A DNA stretch of 64,000 nt, taken from Colwellia sp. PAMC 20917. GTDB lineage: Bacteria; Pseudomonadota; Gammaproteobacteria; Enterobacterales; Alteromonadaceae. The number at the start of each line of letters is the position of its first letter. Positions within the stretch are counted from its first letter, which is position 1. Shown here in pieces: positions 30,507 to 36,911 of this stretch. The notes under the pieces were generated by a model. That model was not told the origin of the DNA. It did no database searches and saw only the letters and a list, made by a program, of their open reading frames with translations. The stretch covers positions 2,666,001-2,730,000 of the forward strand of contig NZ_CP014944.1 of NCBI RefSeq assembly GCF_001767295.1. Direction: 5' to 3'. The position numbers and the translations under genes are program-made.

Positions 30507-31895
30507 ATGTTTATAATAGCGGCTATTCTACGTGAATATTATTATCATGTCAGAAAGGCGAATAATAAATTTGCAAATCACCATATAAAATTCAGGGAGT
30601 GGGTTATTTTTACTAAATTTTTTACTTGGTTTAAAGTGAAACTAATACGCAGTGATAAGCGTGCATGGTTACTAAAGTTTCGCTATTTTACCGTCCCTAA
30701 CTGGTTTAGAAAAACACCTGTCGCTGAAGTTTACTTAGCACTTAATGACCCTTATAGCTTTATGCTGATTCAAGTGTTACCCGAGCTAGAGCAACGTTTC
30801 AATATTCAATTTAAATTATTTCTAGTTTATGAAAGTGTTCCAGGGGTAACTATCGATCCCAAATTAATGCGCACTTGGGCAATAAAAGATGCCAACTTTA
30901 TTGCTGATCAATATCAATTAAAAAAAATAACGCAACAACCGACTCAAGAATCACTCTTTACTGGTCAGCAAATGTGGCAGTTGCGACCTAAAACACTCGA
31001 TAATGCTTGGCAACTCTTTCAACAGACTTGGTCGAATGATTTTGATTACTACTATCATGCTTCTACACCAGTAATAAATTATCAAATTAAAAATTTAATG
31101 CGTTTAGTTAAACAAGGGCATTATTTACCTTCGTCTATTTTTATTGCGGGGCAATGGTTTGTCGGTATTGATAGGCTTGAACATCTAGAAAAACGTTTGG
31201 CTGACTTTGGTTTAGCAAAAGATGACAGTGTTGCTGTTTATCAAAAAAATAAATTAGTCTTTGCTGAGCAACAAGCGAAAGATAATGCCGCTGACATCGC
31301 TGACATCGCTGACATCGCTGACACGAAAATATTAGAAGCCTTTATTTCATTGCGAAGCCCTTATTCTTATATTGGTTTATTACAAGCAGAAAAGTTAAGT
31401 CAGCATTATCAGATCCCTTTAAAGATAAAACCGTTATTACCTTTGATTATGCGAGGGTTAACCACGACAGAAAATAAAGAACGTTATGCTGTTTTTGATG
31501 CCAGTCGTGAAGCCAAAAAACTTAATATTCCTTTTACCGGTATTGCAGATCCTTTAGGGCAAGGTATTTTTAATGCTTTTCAAATTTTTTCTTATGCAGA
31601 ACAACAAAATAAAGAGCTCGCTTTTATTAAGTCGGCGTTTAAAGCCATTTATGTTGACGGTTTAGACTTATCCCAGAAATCGGTAATCGAATCTTTATGT
31701 CAGCAGCATAAAATCAATTATCTACAAGCGTTAGAATATAATAATGAACATGACTGGCAACAATGGTCTGATACTAACCAAAGCACTTTAGATGGCATGG
31801 GGTTATGGGGAGCGCCTTGTTTTCGATTTCAAAATGTTATTTGTTGGGGGCAAGACCGTTTGGCACAAATTGAACAAGCGATTATTGTTTCATAA
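30507..31895 (+). CDS. Protein with two DsbA/HCCA-isomerase-like thioredoxin domains
   Basis: The 462-residue product carries two similar halves. Each starts with a pattern seen in 2-hydroxychromene-2-carboxylate isomerase and kappa-class GST relatives: VYLALNDPYSFMLIQ near residue 75 and AFISLRSPYSYIGLLQ near residue 278. The second half ends with the cis-proline-type segment GLWGAPCFRF. Neither half has a CxxC motif, so disulfide exchange is unlikely; glutathione-dependent chemistry is possible. The halves are joined by a repetitive linker (DIADIADIAD) coded by a 9-base tandem repeat. The N-terminal 40 residues are basic and unusual, so the true start may be later than ATG 30507. Confidence 0.7.
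   Translation: MFIIAAILREYYYHVRKANNKFANHHIKFREWVIFTKFFTWFKVKLIRSDKRAWLLKFRYFTVPNWFRKTPVAEVYLALNDPYSFMLIQVLPELEQRFNIQFKLFLVYESVPGVTIDPKLMRTWAIKDANFIADQYQLKKITQQPTQESLFTGQQMWQLRPKTLDNAWQLFQQTWSNDFDYYYHASTPVINYQIKNLMRLVKQGHYLPSSIFIAGQWFVGIDRLEHLEKRLADFGLAKDDSVAVYQKNKLVFAEQQAKDNAADIADIADIADTKILEAFISLRSPYSYIGLLQAEKLSQHYQIPLKIKPLLPLIMRGLTTTENKERYAVFDASREAKKLNIPFTGIADPLGQGIFNAFQIFSYAEQQNKELAFIKSAFKAIYVDGLDLSQKSVIESLCQQHKINYLQALEYNNEHDWQQWSDTNQSTLDGMGLWGAPCFRFQNVICWGQDRLAQIEQAIIVS
31290..31323 (+). repeat. 9-base in-frame tandem repeat in the two-domain linker
   Basis: GCTGACATC is repeated three times and followed by a partial fourth copy (GCTGACA), about 3.8 copies. Each unit encodes A-D-I, so copy-number change would lengthen the linker without a frameshift. 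Confidence 0.9.
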
Positions 31896-32019: not shown

Positions 32020-32195
32020 AAAGGGCCAGAAGAGGAGCATTAACCAGGTAGTTATCATAAAGAGATCAAGCTCTAATGATTGGTAACGAGGGGGATTAAT
32101 GCCGAGGTAAGTAATTTTTTTGATAATTTACTTATCGGTTGTTTGGGTTGAATCCTAACAATTGTCACCAACTTGGTGGGGAGCTTCTGGCCTTT
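32020..32195 (+). promoter_or_regulatory. Lysine riboswitch (L-box/LYS element)
   Basis: The leader folds as a lysine aptamer. The closing P1 stem pairs GCCAGAAG (32025-32032) with CTTCTGGC (32184-32191). The conserved core follows in order: AGAGGAGC just inside P1, GAGGGGGATTAATGCCGAGG in the central part, a P4 arm (AAGTAA with TTACTT), and CACCAACTTGGTGGGGAGC (a P5 hairpin and the 3' core). It sits directly before a dapA paralogue and other lysine-pathway genes, as expected. No strong terminator hairpin with a T run follows, so control is probably at translation. Confidence 0.9.
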
Positions 32196-32258
32196 GTAAA
32201 GCCTAATGCTCTTCACATAAGTGATTGTTATCTTGGTTATTACAAACGCCTAAAAGTT

Positions 32259-32284
32259 CTCCGAACGAACAGAGTTCGAGAGAA
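32259..32284 (+). promoter_or_regulatory. Possible ribosome-binding-site-sequestering hairpin of the riboswitch
   Basis: CTCCGAAC (32259-32266) can pair with GTTCGAG (32274-32280) with one bulged base. The 3' arm covers most of the only ribosome binding site (GAGAG) before ATG 32285. This would let lysine binding shut off translation, the usual expression mode of gammaproteobacterial lysine riboswitches. The switch partner strand was not worked out. Confidence 0.5.
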
Positions 32285-33217
32285 ATGAATCAAATAAAAC
32301 TATCAAAAAAAATTAGCTTAACAGCTAACCCTACGCCTCATCATACTATTTTATGGACCGCATTAATTACGCCATTACTTGATAATGGTGAAATCGATTT
32401 CCCAAGCCTCAAACAGTTAGCTATTAGTCAGTCTGACGCCGGTAATGGCATTGTCTTGCTCGGTAGTACCGGAGAGGGCCTGGCCTTAACATCGCAAGAG
32501 CAAGTTAAGATTGTTGAATTCGTTTGCCAGTTATCACTCAGCGCGCCTTTAATGGTGGCTGTTGGCGGCTATCAGTTAACGGAGCAAATTAATTGGATAA
32601 CGGCTTGTAATAAATTACCTATTTCAGCCTACTTACTTGGTAGTCCCATTTACGCAAAGCCGGGTGTGATAGGTCAAACGCAATGGTTTAGTGCTTTACT
32701 TGATGCCGCCAACTTCCCCTGTATGTTATATAACGTCCCCTCTCGTAGCGGTGTTTCTATTGCTATTGAAACTTTACAGGCGGTGCAAAATCATCAGCAT
32801 TGTTGGGCGTTAAAAGAAGCCAGTGGCGATTTAAATCAGGTACTCGCCTATCACCAGTATTGTCCAGATATTGCCCTATATAGTGGTGAAGACGCCATGA
32901 TGCCTTACTTAGCACAAGCAGGTGTAAAAGGGTTAGTTTCGGTTTGTAGTAATGTCTGGCCGGCAGCGACTCATCAATACGTCGAGCTATCACTAGCTGG
33001 TGAGACCCAAGGTTTATTTCCACTTTGGCAAAATGCGGTCGATGAGCTTTTTCAGGTGGCAAGTCCCATACCCGTAAAAGTATTAATGCACCAAAATAAA
33101 ATGATCAACACTCCCTTTTTACGTGCGCCGTTAACCCATTTAGAACTTAACGACTGCAACTCGCTGTTAGCATCAGATAAATTAATTAATCAATGGCTTG
33201 AAAATCAAGCTAAGTGA
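32285..33217 (+). CDS. 4-hydroxy-tetrahydrodipicolinate synthase family protein (DapA paralogue)
   Basis: DapA condenses pyruvate with aspartate semialdehyde, the first committed step to lysine. The 310-residue product keeps the Schiff-base lysine K177 (WALKEASGD), the tyrosine Y149 (LYNVPSRSG) and the GSTGEG loop, where canonical DapA usually has GTTGE. ATG 32285 has GAGAG upstream; an in-frame TTG at 32225 lies in the leader. It is the first gene after the lysine riboswitch, so a role in lysine synthesis is far more likely than in sialic acid or other aldolase branches of the family. Confidence 0.88.
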   Translation: MNQIKLSKKISLTANPTPHHTILWTALITPLLDNGEIDFPSLKQLAISQSDAGNGIVLLGSTGEGLALTSQEQVKIVEFVCQLSLSAPLMVAVGGYQLTEQINWITACNKLPISAYLLGSPIYAKPGVIGQTQWFSALLDAANFPCMLYNVPSRSGVSIAIETLQAVQNHQHCWALKEASGDLNQVLAYHQYCPDIALYSGEDAMMPYLAQAGVKGLVSVCSNVWPAATHQYVELSLAGETQGLFPLWQNAVDELFQVASPIPVKVLMHQNKMINTPFLRAPLTHLELNDCNSLLASDKLINQWLENQAK

Positions 33218-33247
33218 TCCCTTTAAGTATTAACATGAGAATTTAAA

Positions 33248-33997
33248 ATGAATTGGCAAGAAACATTAACACAATTAGAAGCAGGTACTGTTCGTGCGGC
33301 AAATCAAGATAAAGCAGGAAATTGGCAGGCCAATGTAGCCGTAAAAGAAGCGATATTATCAGCATTTAAAGCGGGCGAAAACATTGCTTTTGATGGCATT
33401 TACAAGGGGTTTGTCGATAAACATAATTTACCTGCGCGTGAGTTTACCGCTGACGATAAAGTACGATTAGTCCCGGGTGGTTCTTCAGTTCGCCGTGGTG
33501 CGCATGTTGCTCCTGGTGTCATTATTATGCCACCCGCTTACATTAATGTTGGGGCTTTTGTTGATACAGGCACTATGATTGATAGCCATGCATTAATTGG
33601 CTCGTGCGCACAAATAGGTAAAAATGTTCATGTTTCTGCCGCTGTTCAAATTGGTGGTGTTTTAGAGCCGGTTGGTGCAAGCCCTGTTATTATCGAAGAT
33701 GGTGCCTTTCTAAGTGCTGGTGTGGTCATTGTCGAAGGTATTGTTGTTAAAAAAGGGGCTGTTTTAGCGCCAGGCGTCTCACTTTCAGCGTCAGTGCCTG
33801 TTTACGATTGTGTGAATGAAGTGATGCTTGAAAAAGGTGCTGATATTCCTGAACGTGCTGTAGTGGTGCCAGGAACACGTCCGGTTTCAGGGGCGTGGGC
33901 GAAAACGCACGGTTTAAATATGGCTTGTGCATTAATCGTTAAATATCGCGATGAAAAAAGTAATGCCTCGTTAGAACTCGAGTCTATTTTACGTTAA
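33248..33997 (+). CDS. dapD: Tetrahydrodipicolinate N-succinyltransferase family protein (short DapD)
   Basis: DapD transfers a succinyl group from succinyl-CoA to tetrahydrodipicolinate. The product is 249 residues, shorter than the roughly 274 of the common gammaproteobacterial enzyme. It has an N-terminal helical domain (about 1-75) and a left-handed beta-helix with hexapeptide turns (GAHVAPGVIIMPPAYINVGA, then IDSHALIGSCAQIGKNVHVS and QIGGVLEP). The last two segments match DapD strongly. It starts 30 bases after the dapA-like gene. An acetyl donor cannot be excluded by eye. Confidence 0.85.
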   Translation: MNWQETLTQLEAGTVRAANQDKAGNWQANVAVKEAILSAFKAGENIAFDGIYKGFVDKHNLPAREFTADDKVRLVPGGSSVRRGAHVAPGVIIMPPAYINVGAFVDTGTMIDSHALIGSCAQIGKNVHVSAAVQIGGVLEPVGASPVIIEDGAFLSAGVVIVEGIVVKKGAVLAPGVSLSASVPVYDCVNEVMLEKGADIPERAVVVPGTRPVSGAWAKTHGLNMACALIVKYRDEKSNASLELESILR

Positions 33998-34023
33998 GCC
34001 CTCTAAGGTAAAGCAGGAATATC

Positions 34024-35268
34024 ATGTCTGAGTTAGTCAATACTACCTATTGTTTTGATTCTCCTTCGGCGCTTGAATTAAGCGCTGAGTTAACAAAACA
34101 ACAACCTGAAAGTAGCCAGCAAGAAGGTTACTTTGTTTATCATCTTGATGCGCTTAAAGCCCATTTAGCCGAACTACAACGACAAGACGTTATTAAGTTA
34201 TGGTTTGCGGTAAAAGCGAACCCGTTATCTAACATCATTAAAACCTTAGACGATGCGGGTTTTAATTTTGATGTGGCGAGCAGTGGCGAATTAAATCAAG
34301 TCTTAAAGCAAGGTATTACACCCGAACGTATCTTAAATACCGGTCCGGCAAAATCAAAAGCACAAATAACGTCGTTCATTAAACAAGGGGTTAATATTTT
34401 TGTTGCTGAAAGTTTGAATCAATTAATTTGGTTAAATGAAGCAGCTATTGAGCATAATGTTAAGCCAAGAGTGCTGTTGCGGGTTCAGTTGCAATGGCCA
34501 GAGGGTGAAAAAAACCCTTTAGGGGGAAATTCCCTAACACCATTTGGTTTGTCGATAGAGCAGTGGCAAAGCATTAAAGTCGTTAACTTTCCTGGTATTG
34601 AGTTGTGTGGTTTACATATTTTTCAATGGGGCAATATGCTCAGTAATGAAAAAATGTTCTCGCTGTGGTCACAAATGGTTGCACCATTAAAAGGTTTAGC
34701 TGATGACATAGGTATGCCATTAAAAATCTTAGATTTAGGTGGCGGTTTAGGTATTGATTATTTACAGCAAGGCAAAACACTTTCTTGGCAGAAAATTATT
34801 GCTGATTTGGCAATCATAAAGCAGCAGGCAGGTGCCGAAGAGTTATGGTTAGAGTTGGGCCGTTTTGCGGTTGCTGAGTGTGGTTATTATGTGGTCCCCG
34901 TAGTTGATAGAAAAATTAATTATGGTCAAGAGCAGTTAGTCTTAGCTGCAGGTATTAATCATTTGTTAAGACCTGCGATAACAGAACAGCCTTTTCCGGT
35001 AAATTTACTACGAGAATCTGCACACGAAAAACAGTTGTTTGATATTCATGGTCCGCTATGTACCAGTATGGACAAATTGGGTAAGTTGCCTTTGCCTGAT
35101 GACGTATCCGTTGGCGATCAACTGGTATTTGGCTATTGCGGTGCCTACGGTTTTACTGAAAGTATGCCGTTTTTTCTTTGTCACCATATCGCTGCTGAAT
35201 ATGTGTTTAGTCAAGGGACGTTGATTGAAGTCAGAGCAGCACAACCAGCGGATTGGTATTTAAGATAG
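34024..35268 (+). CDS. PLP-dependent decarboxylase, diaminopimelate-decarboxylase-like (LysA family)
   Basis: This 414-residue fold-type III enzyme has the PLP lysine K64 (FAVKANP), H198 (LHIFQWGNM), the glycine loop DLGGGLGIDY, ELGR (277-280), the catalytic cysteine C346 in GPLCTSMDKL and GAYGF near 373. Family members decarboxylate meso-diaminopimelate to lysine, or related D-amino-acid centres in siderophore and polyamine pathways. The segment HIFQWGNM replaces the HIGSQ typical of standard LysA, so the specificity could differ. Riboswitch control and neighbours point to lysine formation. It starts 27 bases after dapD. Confidence 0.8.
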   Translation: MSELVNTTYCFDSPSALELSAELTKQQPESSQQEGYFVYHLDALKAHLAELQRQDVIKLWFAVKANPLSNIIKTLDDAGFNFDVASSGELNQVLKQGITPERILNTGPAKSKAQITSFIKQGVNIFVAESLNQLIWLNEAAIEHNVKPRVLLRVQLQWPEGEKNPLGGNSLTPFGLSIEQWQSIKVVNFPGIELCGLHIFQWGNMLSNEKMFSLWSQMVAPLKGLADDIGMPLKILDLGGGLGIDYLQQGKTLSWQKIIADLAIIKQQAGAEELWLELGRFAVAECGYYVVPVVDRKINYGQEQLVLAAGINHLLRPAITEQPFPVNLLRESAHEKQLFDIHGPLCTSMDKLGKLPLPDDVSVGDQLVFGYCGAYGFTESMPFFLCHHIAAEYVFSQGTLIEVRAAQPADWYLR

Positions 35269-35310
35269 CGATAAATACTTCAGCTTAATATTTAAGATAA
35301 AGTGAACAAA

Positions 35311-36438
35311 ATGAATGAAATAAAAAAAGAAGTTATGCATGTTGGTGAAATGGCGAGCGGCGCAGCACTTACTGTTCCTGTTTATCGTATAAAAGGACGT
35401 ACTGATGCGCCCAGTGTTTATATTCAAGCGAATATGCATGGCGCTGAAGTGCAAGGTAATGCGGTTATTTTTCAATTATTAGAATTATTGAAAAATACAA
35501 AAATCAATGGCGATATTACCTTAGTACCTTATGCTAACCCTGTGGGTTGCAATCATAAAAATGGTGAATATACCCTTGGCAGATTTGATCCTATCACCGG
35601 AGTGAATTGGAACCGGATGTATCACTTTGATGAAAGCATTATCAAACCGTTTGTTCGTGAATGTATTGGCAAAACAAATCAAGTCATTGAAGCCAATTTT
35701 AAAAAGCTAATGATTGAAAGTATTGAAGAAAAACTTAACCATAATATTTATGGGCTAACGACCGGACAACGTATTGCTTATCAATTACAGCGCTTGGCGC
35801 ATCAAGCTGACTACGTTTTAGACTTACATACCGGCCCTATTTCAAGTAAACATTTATACTGCCCTGAATATGCGCAAGAAAGCGCTCAGTACTTTGATAT
35901 TCCACATACATTATTAATTCCTAATGACTTTGATGGTGCCTTAGACGAAGCAACATTCTGCCCTTGGTGGTCATTACAAGACGCTTTTGCTGAATTAGGT
36001 ATCGAGTTTTCGATTAGTTCAGCGTCTATTAACAAAGAAAGCTTTACCGTTGAATTAGGCTCGCAAGAACAGATTGATCTTGATGTAGCCTTAGAAGATG
36101 CTAAAAGCATTATGAATTATTTGCAGCATAAAAACGTCATCAACACCACAGACTACCGACCTAAAACGATGACACGTTATGGATGTTATTTAAAAAACTA
36201 CAAAGCCTTTTATTCGCCAATGGGAGGGATGGTCGATTACTTGGCTGAATTTGGTCAACCATTAGCGGCGGGTGAACCACTGGCGAGAATTTTGCGCATG
36301 GATAATTATGGTGACGGCGATCCATTGCACTATATTTCATTGGATAAGAAAGTTATTCCTATTTTACATTTTGCCTCGGCGAGTGTGAATCAAGGTACAG
36401 AATTATATAAAGTGTTTAGTGAGTATTTTGAGTTTTAA
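35311..36438 (+). CDS. Succinylglutamate desuccinylase/aspartoacylase family metallohydrolase
   Basis: The 375-residue enzyme belongs to the AstE/ASPA branch of the M14 fold. Zinc ligands H43 and E46 (NMHGAEVQGN) and H173 (DLHTG), the substrate-binding NWNRMY, and the catalytic glutamate E248 (FTVELG) are all visible, and a C-terminal beta domain follows. Such enzymes remove succinyl or acetyl groups from amino acids. In a lysine-regulated operon with dapD, removal of succinate from N-succinyl-diaminopimelate, the job of DapE, is the most economical reading but is unproven. I chose ATG 35311 over GTG 35302 because AAGATAA is well spaced for it. Confidence 0.82.
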   Translation: MNEIKKEVMHVGEMASGAALTVPVYRIKGRTDAPSVYIQANMHGAEVQGNAVIFQLLELLKNTKINGDITLVPYANPVGCNHKNGEYTLGRFDPITGVNWNRMYHFDESIIKPFVRECIGKTNQVIEANFKKLMIESIEEKLNHNIYGLTTGQRIAYQLQRLAHQADYVLDLHTGPISSKHLYCPEYAQESAQYFDIPHTLLIPNDFDGALDEATFCPWWSLQDAFAELGIEFSISSASINKESFTVELGSQEQIDLDVALEDAKSIMNYLQHKNVINTTDYRPKTMTRYGCYLKNYKAFYSPMGGMVDYLAEFGQPLAAGEPLARILRMDNYGDGDPLHYISLDKKVIPILHFASASVNQGTELYKVFSEYFEF

Positions 36439-36872: not shown

Positions 36873-36911
36873 TAAGGCCTCTTAACATTCATTAAGAGGC
36901 CTTATTTTTTT
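36873..36911. terminator. Hairpin terminator between the peptidase and DUF2059 genes
   Basis: TAAGGCCTCTTAA and TTAAGAGGCCTTA form a perfect 13-base stem (36873-36904). The best T run is on the plus strand. The gene ending nearest is the minus-strand peptidase (36940), for which the downstream tract is only A/T-rich, so the direction is unclear. Confidence 0.65.

Follow-up and report, generated by a model that had tools for sequence, protein, structure and literature searches.

A riboswitch-linked second lysine gene set in Colwellia and its possible role as a diaminopimelate-pathway branch that keeps its acyl group to the last step

What does a zinc deacylase of the AstE/AspA type do at the end of a lysine operon? 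The question is raised by a stretch of 64,000 nucleotides from Colwellia sp. PAMC 20917 (contig NZ_CP014944.1, positions 2,666,001 to 2,730,000; hereafter the window), taken from a genome that is a single contig of 4.68 Mb. On the plus strand of the window, a lysine riboswitch is followed by dapA, a short dapD, lysX, and dac, with intergenic gaps of 30, 26, and 42 bases (Table 1). The names LysX, for a LysA-like decarboxylase, and Dac, for the deacylase, are coined here. This layout of a riboswitch and dapA-like, short dapD, LysA-like, and M14-type deacylase genes on one strand had been described in a first-pass annotation made from the sequence, and it is confirmed by the riboswitch and family scores given below. 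As the next genes, encoding DUF2059 and DPP4-like proteins, sit on the opposite strand, the operon ends with the deacylase.

We find that the operon is a second lysine gene set. Our favored, still tentative reading, which we place a shade short of an even chance, is that it forms a lysine-repressible branch of the diaminopimelate (DAP) pathway in which the acyl group would be retained until the last step. We hold slightly more loosely the wider proposal of a DAP-pathway variant that would make lysine via N-acyl-LL-DAP and N2-acyl-lysine, uncoupled from meso-DAP and the cell wall, by means of new LysX and Dac subfamilies; Colwellia, Thalassotalea, and Pseudoalteromonas would have it under a lysine riboswitch, and an outlier would lie in another order. 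The whole reading is a prediction from sequence.

The first-pass annotation had placed the deacylase at the DapE step, as a non-orthologous replacement. The complete genome of the same strain refutes this for Colwellia sp. PAMC 20917, as it carries dapE (542 bits; cut-off, 361.8), a second dapD of full length (476 bits), and an over-cut-off lysA (534.6 to 536 bits). Since these canonical genes lie elsewhere in the genome, the operon is an extra set. Dac itself has no dapE match, its sole NCBIfam match being DoeB at 33.4 bits against a cut-off of 402.7. The annotation had further asked whether the deacylase co-occurs with absence of dapE. A Dac match at E 1e-20 was found in 68 of 394 genomes sampled from the order, and these 68 were examined together with 9 same-family genomes without Dac; dapE is over the cut-off in 76 of the 77, as is lysA. 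Replacement of DapE by Dac therefore receives almost no weight from us, even though Dac lies near dapD, belongs to a deacylase family, and is found in one operon-bearing genome (G029) with no dapE match. G029 is a draft assembly of 220 contigs at 92% completeness, dapE is present in its congener G003, and the missing gene is likely an assembly gap. G096, the only LysX genome in which no lysA passes the cut-off, is likewise a draft, 93% complete and in 450 contigs.

A different role for Dac is suggested by the gene before it. By family score and active-site residues, the LysA-like protein is not LysA, a point missed by the first-pass annotation, which suggests that the deacylase acts downstream of the decarboxylase rather than at the DapE step. 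LysX scores 183.7 bits with the lysA model TIGR01048, under the cut-off of 297.9, and is 27% identical to the LysA of its own genome; its score with the FslC/FigC model NF041039 is 47.8 against a cut-off of 500. In a tree of 37 sequences, LysX proteins form one clade (100/99) and LysA proteins another (97/95), with exosortase-type decarboxylases beside LysX and the join between LysA and LysX resting on long branches. The nearest PDB sequences include SbnH and BtrK, with a single LysA ranking between the two, and the AlphaFold model of LysX has a pLDDT of 84.5. A plasmid search with LysX returned 59 records, all of less than 60% identity, with "type III PLP-dependent enzyme" the name of 6 of the 10 matches listed.

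The active site indicates what the substrate of LysX may be. According to PMC8277567, Arg249 and Arg285 of T. maritima LysA bind the distal carboxylate of the substrate and Glu315 its distal amine, and an E315T mutant loses most DAP activity and prefers 2-aminopimelate, which has no distal amine. At these places LysX has Arg280, Arg316, and Thr347. All 80 named LysX and all 22 LysX in the tree set carry these three residues, while all six LysA carry Arg, Arg, and Glu. Thus LysX has both arginines for the distal carboxylate (E-x-G-R and RP) and, after the catalytic Cys, Thr in place of the Glu for the distal amine. The numbering match rests on an alignment to Aquifex LysA, the T. maritima sequence itself not being in the alignment, and on spacing: E277 and R280 are 3 apart, as are E246 and R249, and R280 and R316 are 36 apart, as are R249 and R285. 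Beside Arg316, where LysA has Tyr, 22/22 LysX have Thr or Ser. In nine other decarboxylases, Arg280 is present in all, Arg316 in one, and the Thr in three, which are of the exosortase type. Of the two arginines, Arg316 is thus the more informative, Arg280 being common to the whole family, and it is the combination of Arg316 and Thr that marks LysX. The residues K64, D83, E277, and Y375 of the pyridoxal phosphate (PLP) site are kept in 80/80 named LysX.

A retained arginine pair together with a Glu-to-Thr change points to a substrate in which a distal carboxylate is present and no distal amine is free; the Thr takes away the charge that a free amine needs, which fits an acylated amine. Because the enzyme encoded before LysX acylates that amine and the one encoded after it belongs to a deacylase family, N-acyl-LL-DAP would be the simplest substrate, and LysX is probably not a DAP decarboxylase. 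The gene order dapD-lysX-dac equals the predicted reaction order, a further point for the favored reading. A precedent for decarboxylation of an acylated L-amino acid is offered by FigC and SbnH, which cluster with LysA and whose substrates are N-citrylated L-amino acids (PMC7857480).

The other operon proteins are of lysine-pathway types or of a deacylase family. The window DapA (DapA2) scores 249.4 bits with TIGR00674, over the cut-off of 206.15, and the short DapD (DapD2) scores 289.6 bits with NF008808, over the cut-off of 204. DapD2 falls below the cut-off of TIGR00965 (183.4 versus 375.4 bits), is 42% identical to the full-length DapD of the same genome, and has an altered form of the ARSE stretch of the full-length protein; its acyl donor is probably succinyl-CoA. 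In the pathway, the acyl group goes onto the L-2-amino group at the DapD step, and the second center becomes L at the transaminase step. Dac matches the Pfam family PF24827 (AstE_AspA_cat) at 99.8 bits against a gathering score of 25, and its zinc site, H43, E46, H173, and E248, already noted in the first-pass annotation, is invariant across 21 aligned sequences, that of the window included. At E 0.001, the NCBIfam matches of Dac include no AstE model, and PADLOC gave no match for Dac. The closest solved relatives are PDB 3fmc and 3lwu (E <1e-128), which are named merely putative succinylglutamate desuccinylase/aspartoacylase and which we take to be Shewanella structural-genomics entries.

We propose the following scheme, in which the substrates, the acyl group, the sequence of the two final steps, the housekeeping reactions, and the mode of repression are predicted. 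DapA2 would form hydroxy-tetrahydrodipicolinate, which a housekeeping DapB would reduce; DapD2 would acylate the reduced product, probably with succinyl-CoA, and a housekeeping transaminase of the ArgD/DapC type would convert it to N-acyl-LL-DAP. LysX would then decarboxylate the free L-amino-acid end to give N2-acyl-L-lysine, from which Dac would release L-lysine by hydrolysis. DapE, DapF, and LysA would be bypassed, so that lysine could be made on demand without meso-DAP, while the canonical set would go on supplying meso-DAP for the cell wall. Plentiful lysine would shut the branch through the riboswitch, probably by hiding the dapA ribosome-binding site (RBS).

To establish how the genes are arranged elsewhere, regions were read around 40 of the 67 Dac matches outside the window. 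In 18 of them, short dapD and lysX lie next to dac, with dapA also present in 13 and lysC additionally first in 7; six have lysC-dac alone, under a riboswitch, and 16 have dac without lysC, dapA, dapD, or lysX. Because Dac was the basis for choosing these regions, a need of LysX for Dac cannot be read from them. A scan of named genomes that started from LysX served as an independent test: among the best 80 of 287 relatives, dapD-lysX-dac occurs in that order and on one strand in 80/80 loci, with dapA ahead in 57. The layout is thus no accident. These 80 loci come from Colwellia, Thalassotalea, Pseudoalteromonas, and their kin, and the nearest LysX among them, from Colwellia hornerae, is 94% identical.

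The stand-alone dac genes bring up a further explanation, that Dac is a mere clean-up enzyme, one that removes acylated lysine or acyl amino acids of other kinds and rides along in lysine operons. A riboswitch was found in 0 of the 12 stand-alone regions tested, of 16, as such an enzyme would have it; Dac following lysX in all 80 LysX loci read, and a distant LysX lineage (below) that keeps a Dac relative elsewhere in its genome, make this very improbable. Two of the 16 (L082 and L083) are weak relatives of about 30% identity. In genome G072 (L047 and L174), dac stands alone beside rsmC, with no riboswitch, dapA, dapD, or lysX found in the region, and its product is 75% identical to the Dac of the window. 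Three regions of genus g46 (L067, L068, and L075) also have a stand-alone dac, with no lysC and no riboswitch, and tRNA genes are close by in L067 and L075.

The lysC-dac regions, all six of which have the riboswitch, fit a second route of canonical order, with Dac a lysine-repressible succinyl-DAP desuccinylase beside DapE and LysX a divergent DAP decarboxylase: a desuccinylase found without LysX fits service to the ordinary pathway, and the operon proteins are all of lysine-pathway types or a deacylase. LysX, however, is distant from the LysA of its own genome, below the lysA cut-off, and without the Glu and Tyr of the DAP site; the matching single change cost T. maritima LysA most of its DAP activity (PMC8277567); and DapE is already present in nearly every genome examined. 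We regard this route as unlikely, though it is the alternative we take most seriously. Five of the six lysC-dac regions belong to genus g24, which is presumably Shewanella, given that the Dac of L065, a riboswitch-lysC-dac region with no lysX beside it, resembles 3lwu by eye. A second LysA-like gene in the four lysC-dac genomes read (G005, G089, and G301 of g24, and G078) was considered as LysX and rejected, its product having a CDS motif and no RP arginine, an ornithine/lysine-decarboxylase pattern. A supposed transporter gene beside dac in these regions proved to be lysC. All seven regions of genus g34 (L056 to L062) read riboswitch-lysC-dapA-dapD-lysX-dac, and the long form with lysC is perhaps ancestral to both lysC-dac and dapA-dapD-lysX-dac.

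The riboswitch ties the operon to lysine. The aptamer scores 99.5 bits with RF00168 (gathering score, 30), on the coding strand and upstream of lysine genes, and is one of two lysine riboswitches found in the genome, the other lying upstream of lysC. Riboswitches are present in 16 of 19 LysX operons and in 10/10 named LysX-first loci tested, which indicates lysine regulation and which we count for the favored reading. The leader (32186 to 32300) folds at -29.6 kcal/mol (z -3.97), with 1 of 200 shuffles equally good. When 11 leaders were folded, the same RBS hairpin was seen in the window, L045, L048, and L050, and comparable pairing 5' of the start codon in L053 to L056; no such hairpin is evident in L046, L049, and L063. 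As no terminator-like site was found on the plus strand between aptamer and dapA, and the hairpin would hide the dapA RBS, control is likely translational.

Table 1. Features of the lysine operon in the window
Feature	Position	Strand	Evidence
Lysine riboswitch aptamer	32022-32194	+	RF00168; 99.5 bits, E 9.5e-26
Leader hairpin pairing the RBS (GAGAGA) just 5' of the dapA ATG	32257-32284	+	Fold; probable translational expression platform (predicted function)
dapA paralogue, 4-hydroxy-tetrahydrodipicolinate synthase, 310 aa	32285-33217, ATG start	+	TIGR00674
Short dapD, tetrahydrodipicolinate N-acyltransferase, 249 aa	33248-33997	+	NF008808
LysX, LysA-like PLP decarboxylase, predicted N-acyl-LL-DAP decarboxylase, 414 aa	34024-35268	+	Family score, clade, residues
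Dac, AstE/AspA-type zinc deacylase, predicted to convert N2-acyl-lysine to L-lysine (possibly also acting on N-acyl-DAP), 375 aa	35311-36438	+	PF24827

The same regulation bears on whether the product is lysine at all. The first-pass annotation had offered, as an alternative, a parallel route to a lysine relative; the parallel route holds up, while the lysine relative survives solely within a rival reading, in which the product is not free lysine but, for example, a lysine relative or an acyl-lysine, or in which LysX acts on another substrate, such as 2-aminopimelate, that has a distal carboxylate and lacks a distal amine. E315T LysA accepts D-2-aminopimelate (PMC8277567), and in the wider family proteins related to LysX function in siderophore and antibiotic production. 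The lysine riboswitch and the operons shared with lysC, dapA, and dapD point to lysine instead, and no further gene was recognized in the operon of the window before the minus-strand genes begin, so that we think such a product improbable.

Directly upstream of the riboswitch (30507 to 31895, plus strand) lies a gene whose 462-residue product carries a DSBA-like domain at its C terminus and an IADIADIAD tract, and for which PADLOC gave no match; a relative adjoins the operon in L046 and L049. Downstream of the operon, between two minus-strand genes, there is a terminator-like hairpin of 13 pairs (36873 to 36904). Terminator-like sites in the whole stretch number 5 against a shuffle mean of 4.7, which is not above shuffles.

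LysX also occurs outside the order. Among 369 genomes drawn from the class and searched with LysX at E 1e-60, matches were found in five: that of the window, three of genus g164 in family f76 (about 2.0 Mb), and one of another genus, which was rejected as LysX, having a CTP motif and no Arg316. In all three f76 genomes lysC, dapA, short dapD, and lysX lie together with no dac in the cluster, and an over-cut-off lysA is found elsewhere (387 to 397 bits). One cluster (L170) also has a dapB-like gene that falls short of the cut-off (81.9 against 122 bits), an aminotransferase gene, and an asd-like gene recognized by eye only. The f76 genomes encode AstE/AspA-domain proteins, and the two that were read each have an unlinked full-length Dac relative, 38 and 36% identical to the Dac of the window. 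Taken with the data from the order, LysX, short DapD, and a Dac relative co-occur in two distant lineages that differ in linkage, which we count for the favored reading. At L177 and L179, away from the lysX cluster, the f76 lysA has as neighbors a permease-like gene and one of unknown function. An FslC match of 838 bits in one genome hints that f76 is Francisellaceae, which is not confirmed; passages of PMC4990168 and PMC3893172 do not settle the Francisella lysine genes.

Several observations weigh against an acyl group kept to the end. More than half of the Dac regions (22 of 40) are without LysX, and in lysC-dac genomes lacking a LysX product Dac must accept another substrate, most simply N-acyl-DAP, a substrate that suits the rival route of canonical order too. 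The LysX-operon Dac proteins do not form one clade in a tree of 43 sequences, the operon type falling into two main groups interspersed with lysC-dac and stand-alone types, while L081 stands separately; the f76 Dac does not join the operon type, its branch lying outside the Dac of the order. No riboswitch was detected at the gathering score in L051, L052, and L081. As lysA is kept in 18 of 19 LysX genomes, and dapE likewise, the branch is not the sole lysine source, and no genome shows that it suffices.

Other points concern the LysX active site. Phe200 and Gly203 replace the PLP-stacking His and phosphate-binding Ser (the HIGS motif) of LysA in 22/22 LysX, His and Ser being present in 6/6 LysA; the Phe is shared by three exosortase-type proteins. 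As the PLP site is thus unlike that of LysA, the comparison with the T. maritima mutant is loosened. Thr at the position of the Glu is found in all three exosortase-type decarboxylases as well, and BtrK has Arg opposite Arg316 in the alignment, so that neither residue alone defines the substrate. LysA acts on a D center, and E315T is still D-selective (PMC8277567); LysX would have to act on an L center, a switch known in relatives and assumed for LysX. The LysX model is about equally near LysA, BtrK, and SbnH, and the fold comparison separates none of them.

Our literature search found no paper proposing an acyl-retaining route, an absence that is weak, as subscription journals and longer result lists were only partly covered. 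If the favored reading is true, lysine would be made without raising meso-DAP, which would ease the conflict between lysine feedback and the constant need for cell wall precursor. It would also give functions to two families now read as DAP decarboxylase and succinylglutamate desuccinylase/aspartoacylase, including two PDB structures named as putative members, and annotation that treats DapE, DapF, and LysA as the sole pathway exit to lysine would need correcting.

With the succinylase DAP pathway (DapA, DapB, DapD, ArgD/DapC, DapE, DapF, and LysA), the proposed branch shares the DapA and DapD reactions, acylated intermediates, and lysine as product. It differs in that decarboxylation is predicted before deacylation, with no DapE, DapF, or LysA step, and in that the deacylase is of the AstE/AspA rather than the M20 type. 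A likeness in logic is found in the LysW/acetyl-type alpha-aminoadipate pathway, where the amino group is masked until lysine is finished and a deacylase, LysK, strips the carrier from the finished product at the end. That pathway follows the aminoadipate carbon route, with another protecting group, another deacylase family, and no known LysA-like decarboxylase.

With FigC/FslC, SbnH, and BtrK, LysX shares its fold and the wider LysA clade. These enzymes act on acylated or carrier-bound L-amino acids (PMC7857480) and, unlike the predicted LysX, serve siderophores or antibiotics. The LysA Glu is replaced in them too: FigC has Met there and, in the alignment, SbnH and BtrK have Thr. At the place of Arg316, the alignment shows Leu for SbnH (directly preceded by an Arg) and, for BtrK, Arg without the RP motif; the FslC of genome G580 has Ala there.

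Finally, a lysine riboswitch survey (PMC5584792) reports a Pseudoalteromonas operon of the order dapA-dapD-lysA-hypothetical1-hypothetical2 that is said to be confined to that genus. This is very probably the same operon. In the present data its range extends to Colwellia, Thalassotalea, and others. Neither score nor residues make the third gene product, called LysA in the survey, a LysA, and we propose roles for it and for the product of the fourth gene.

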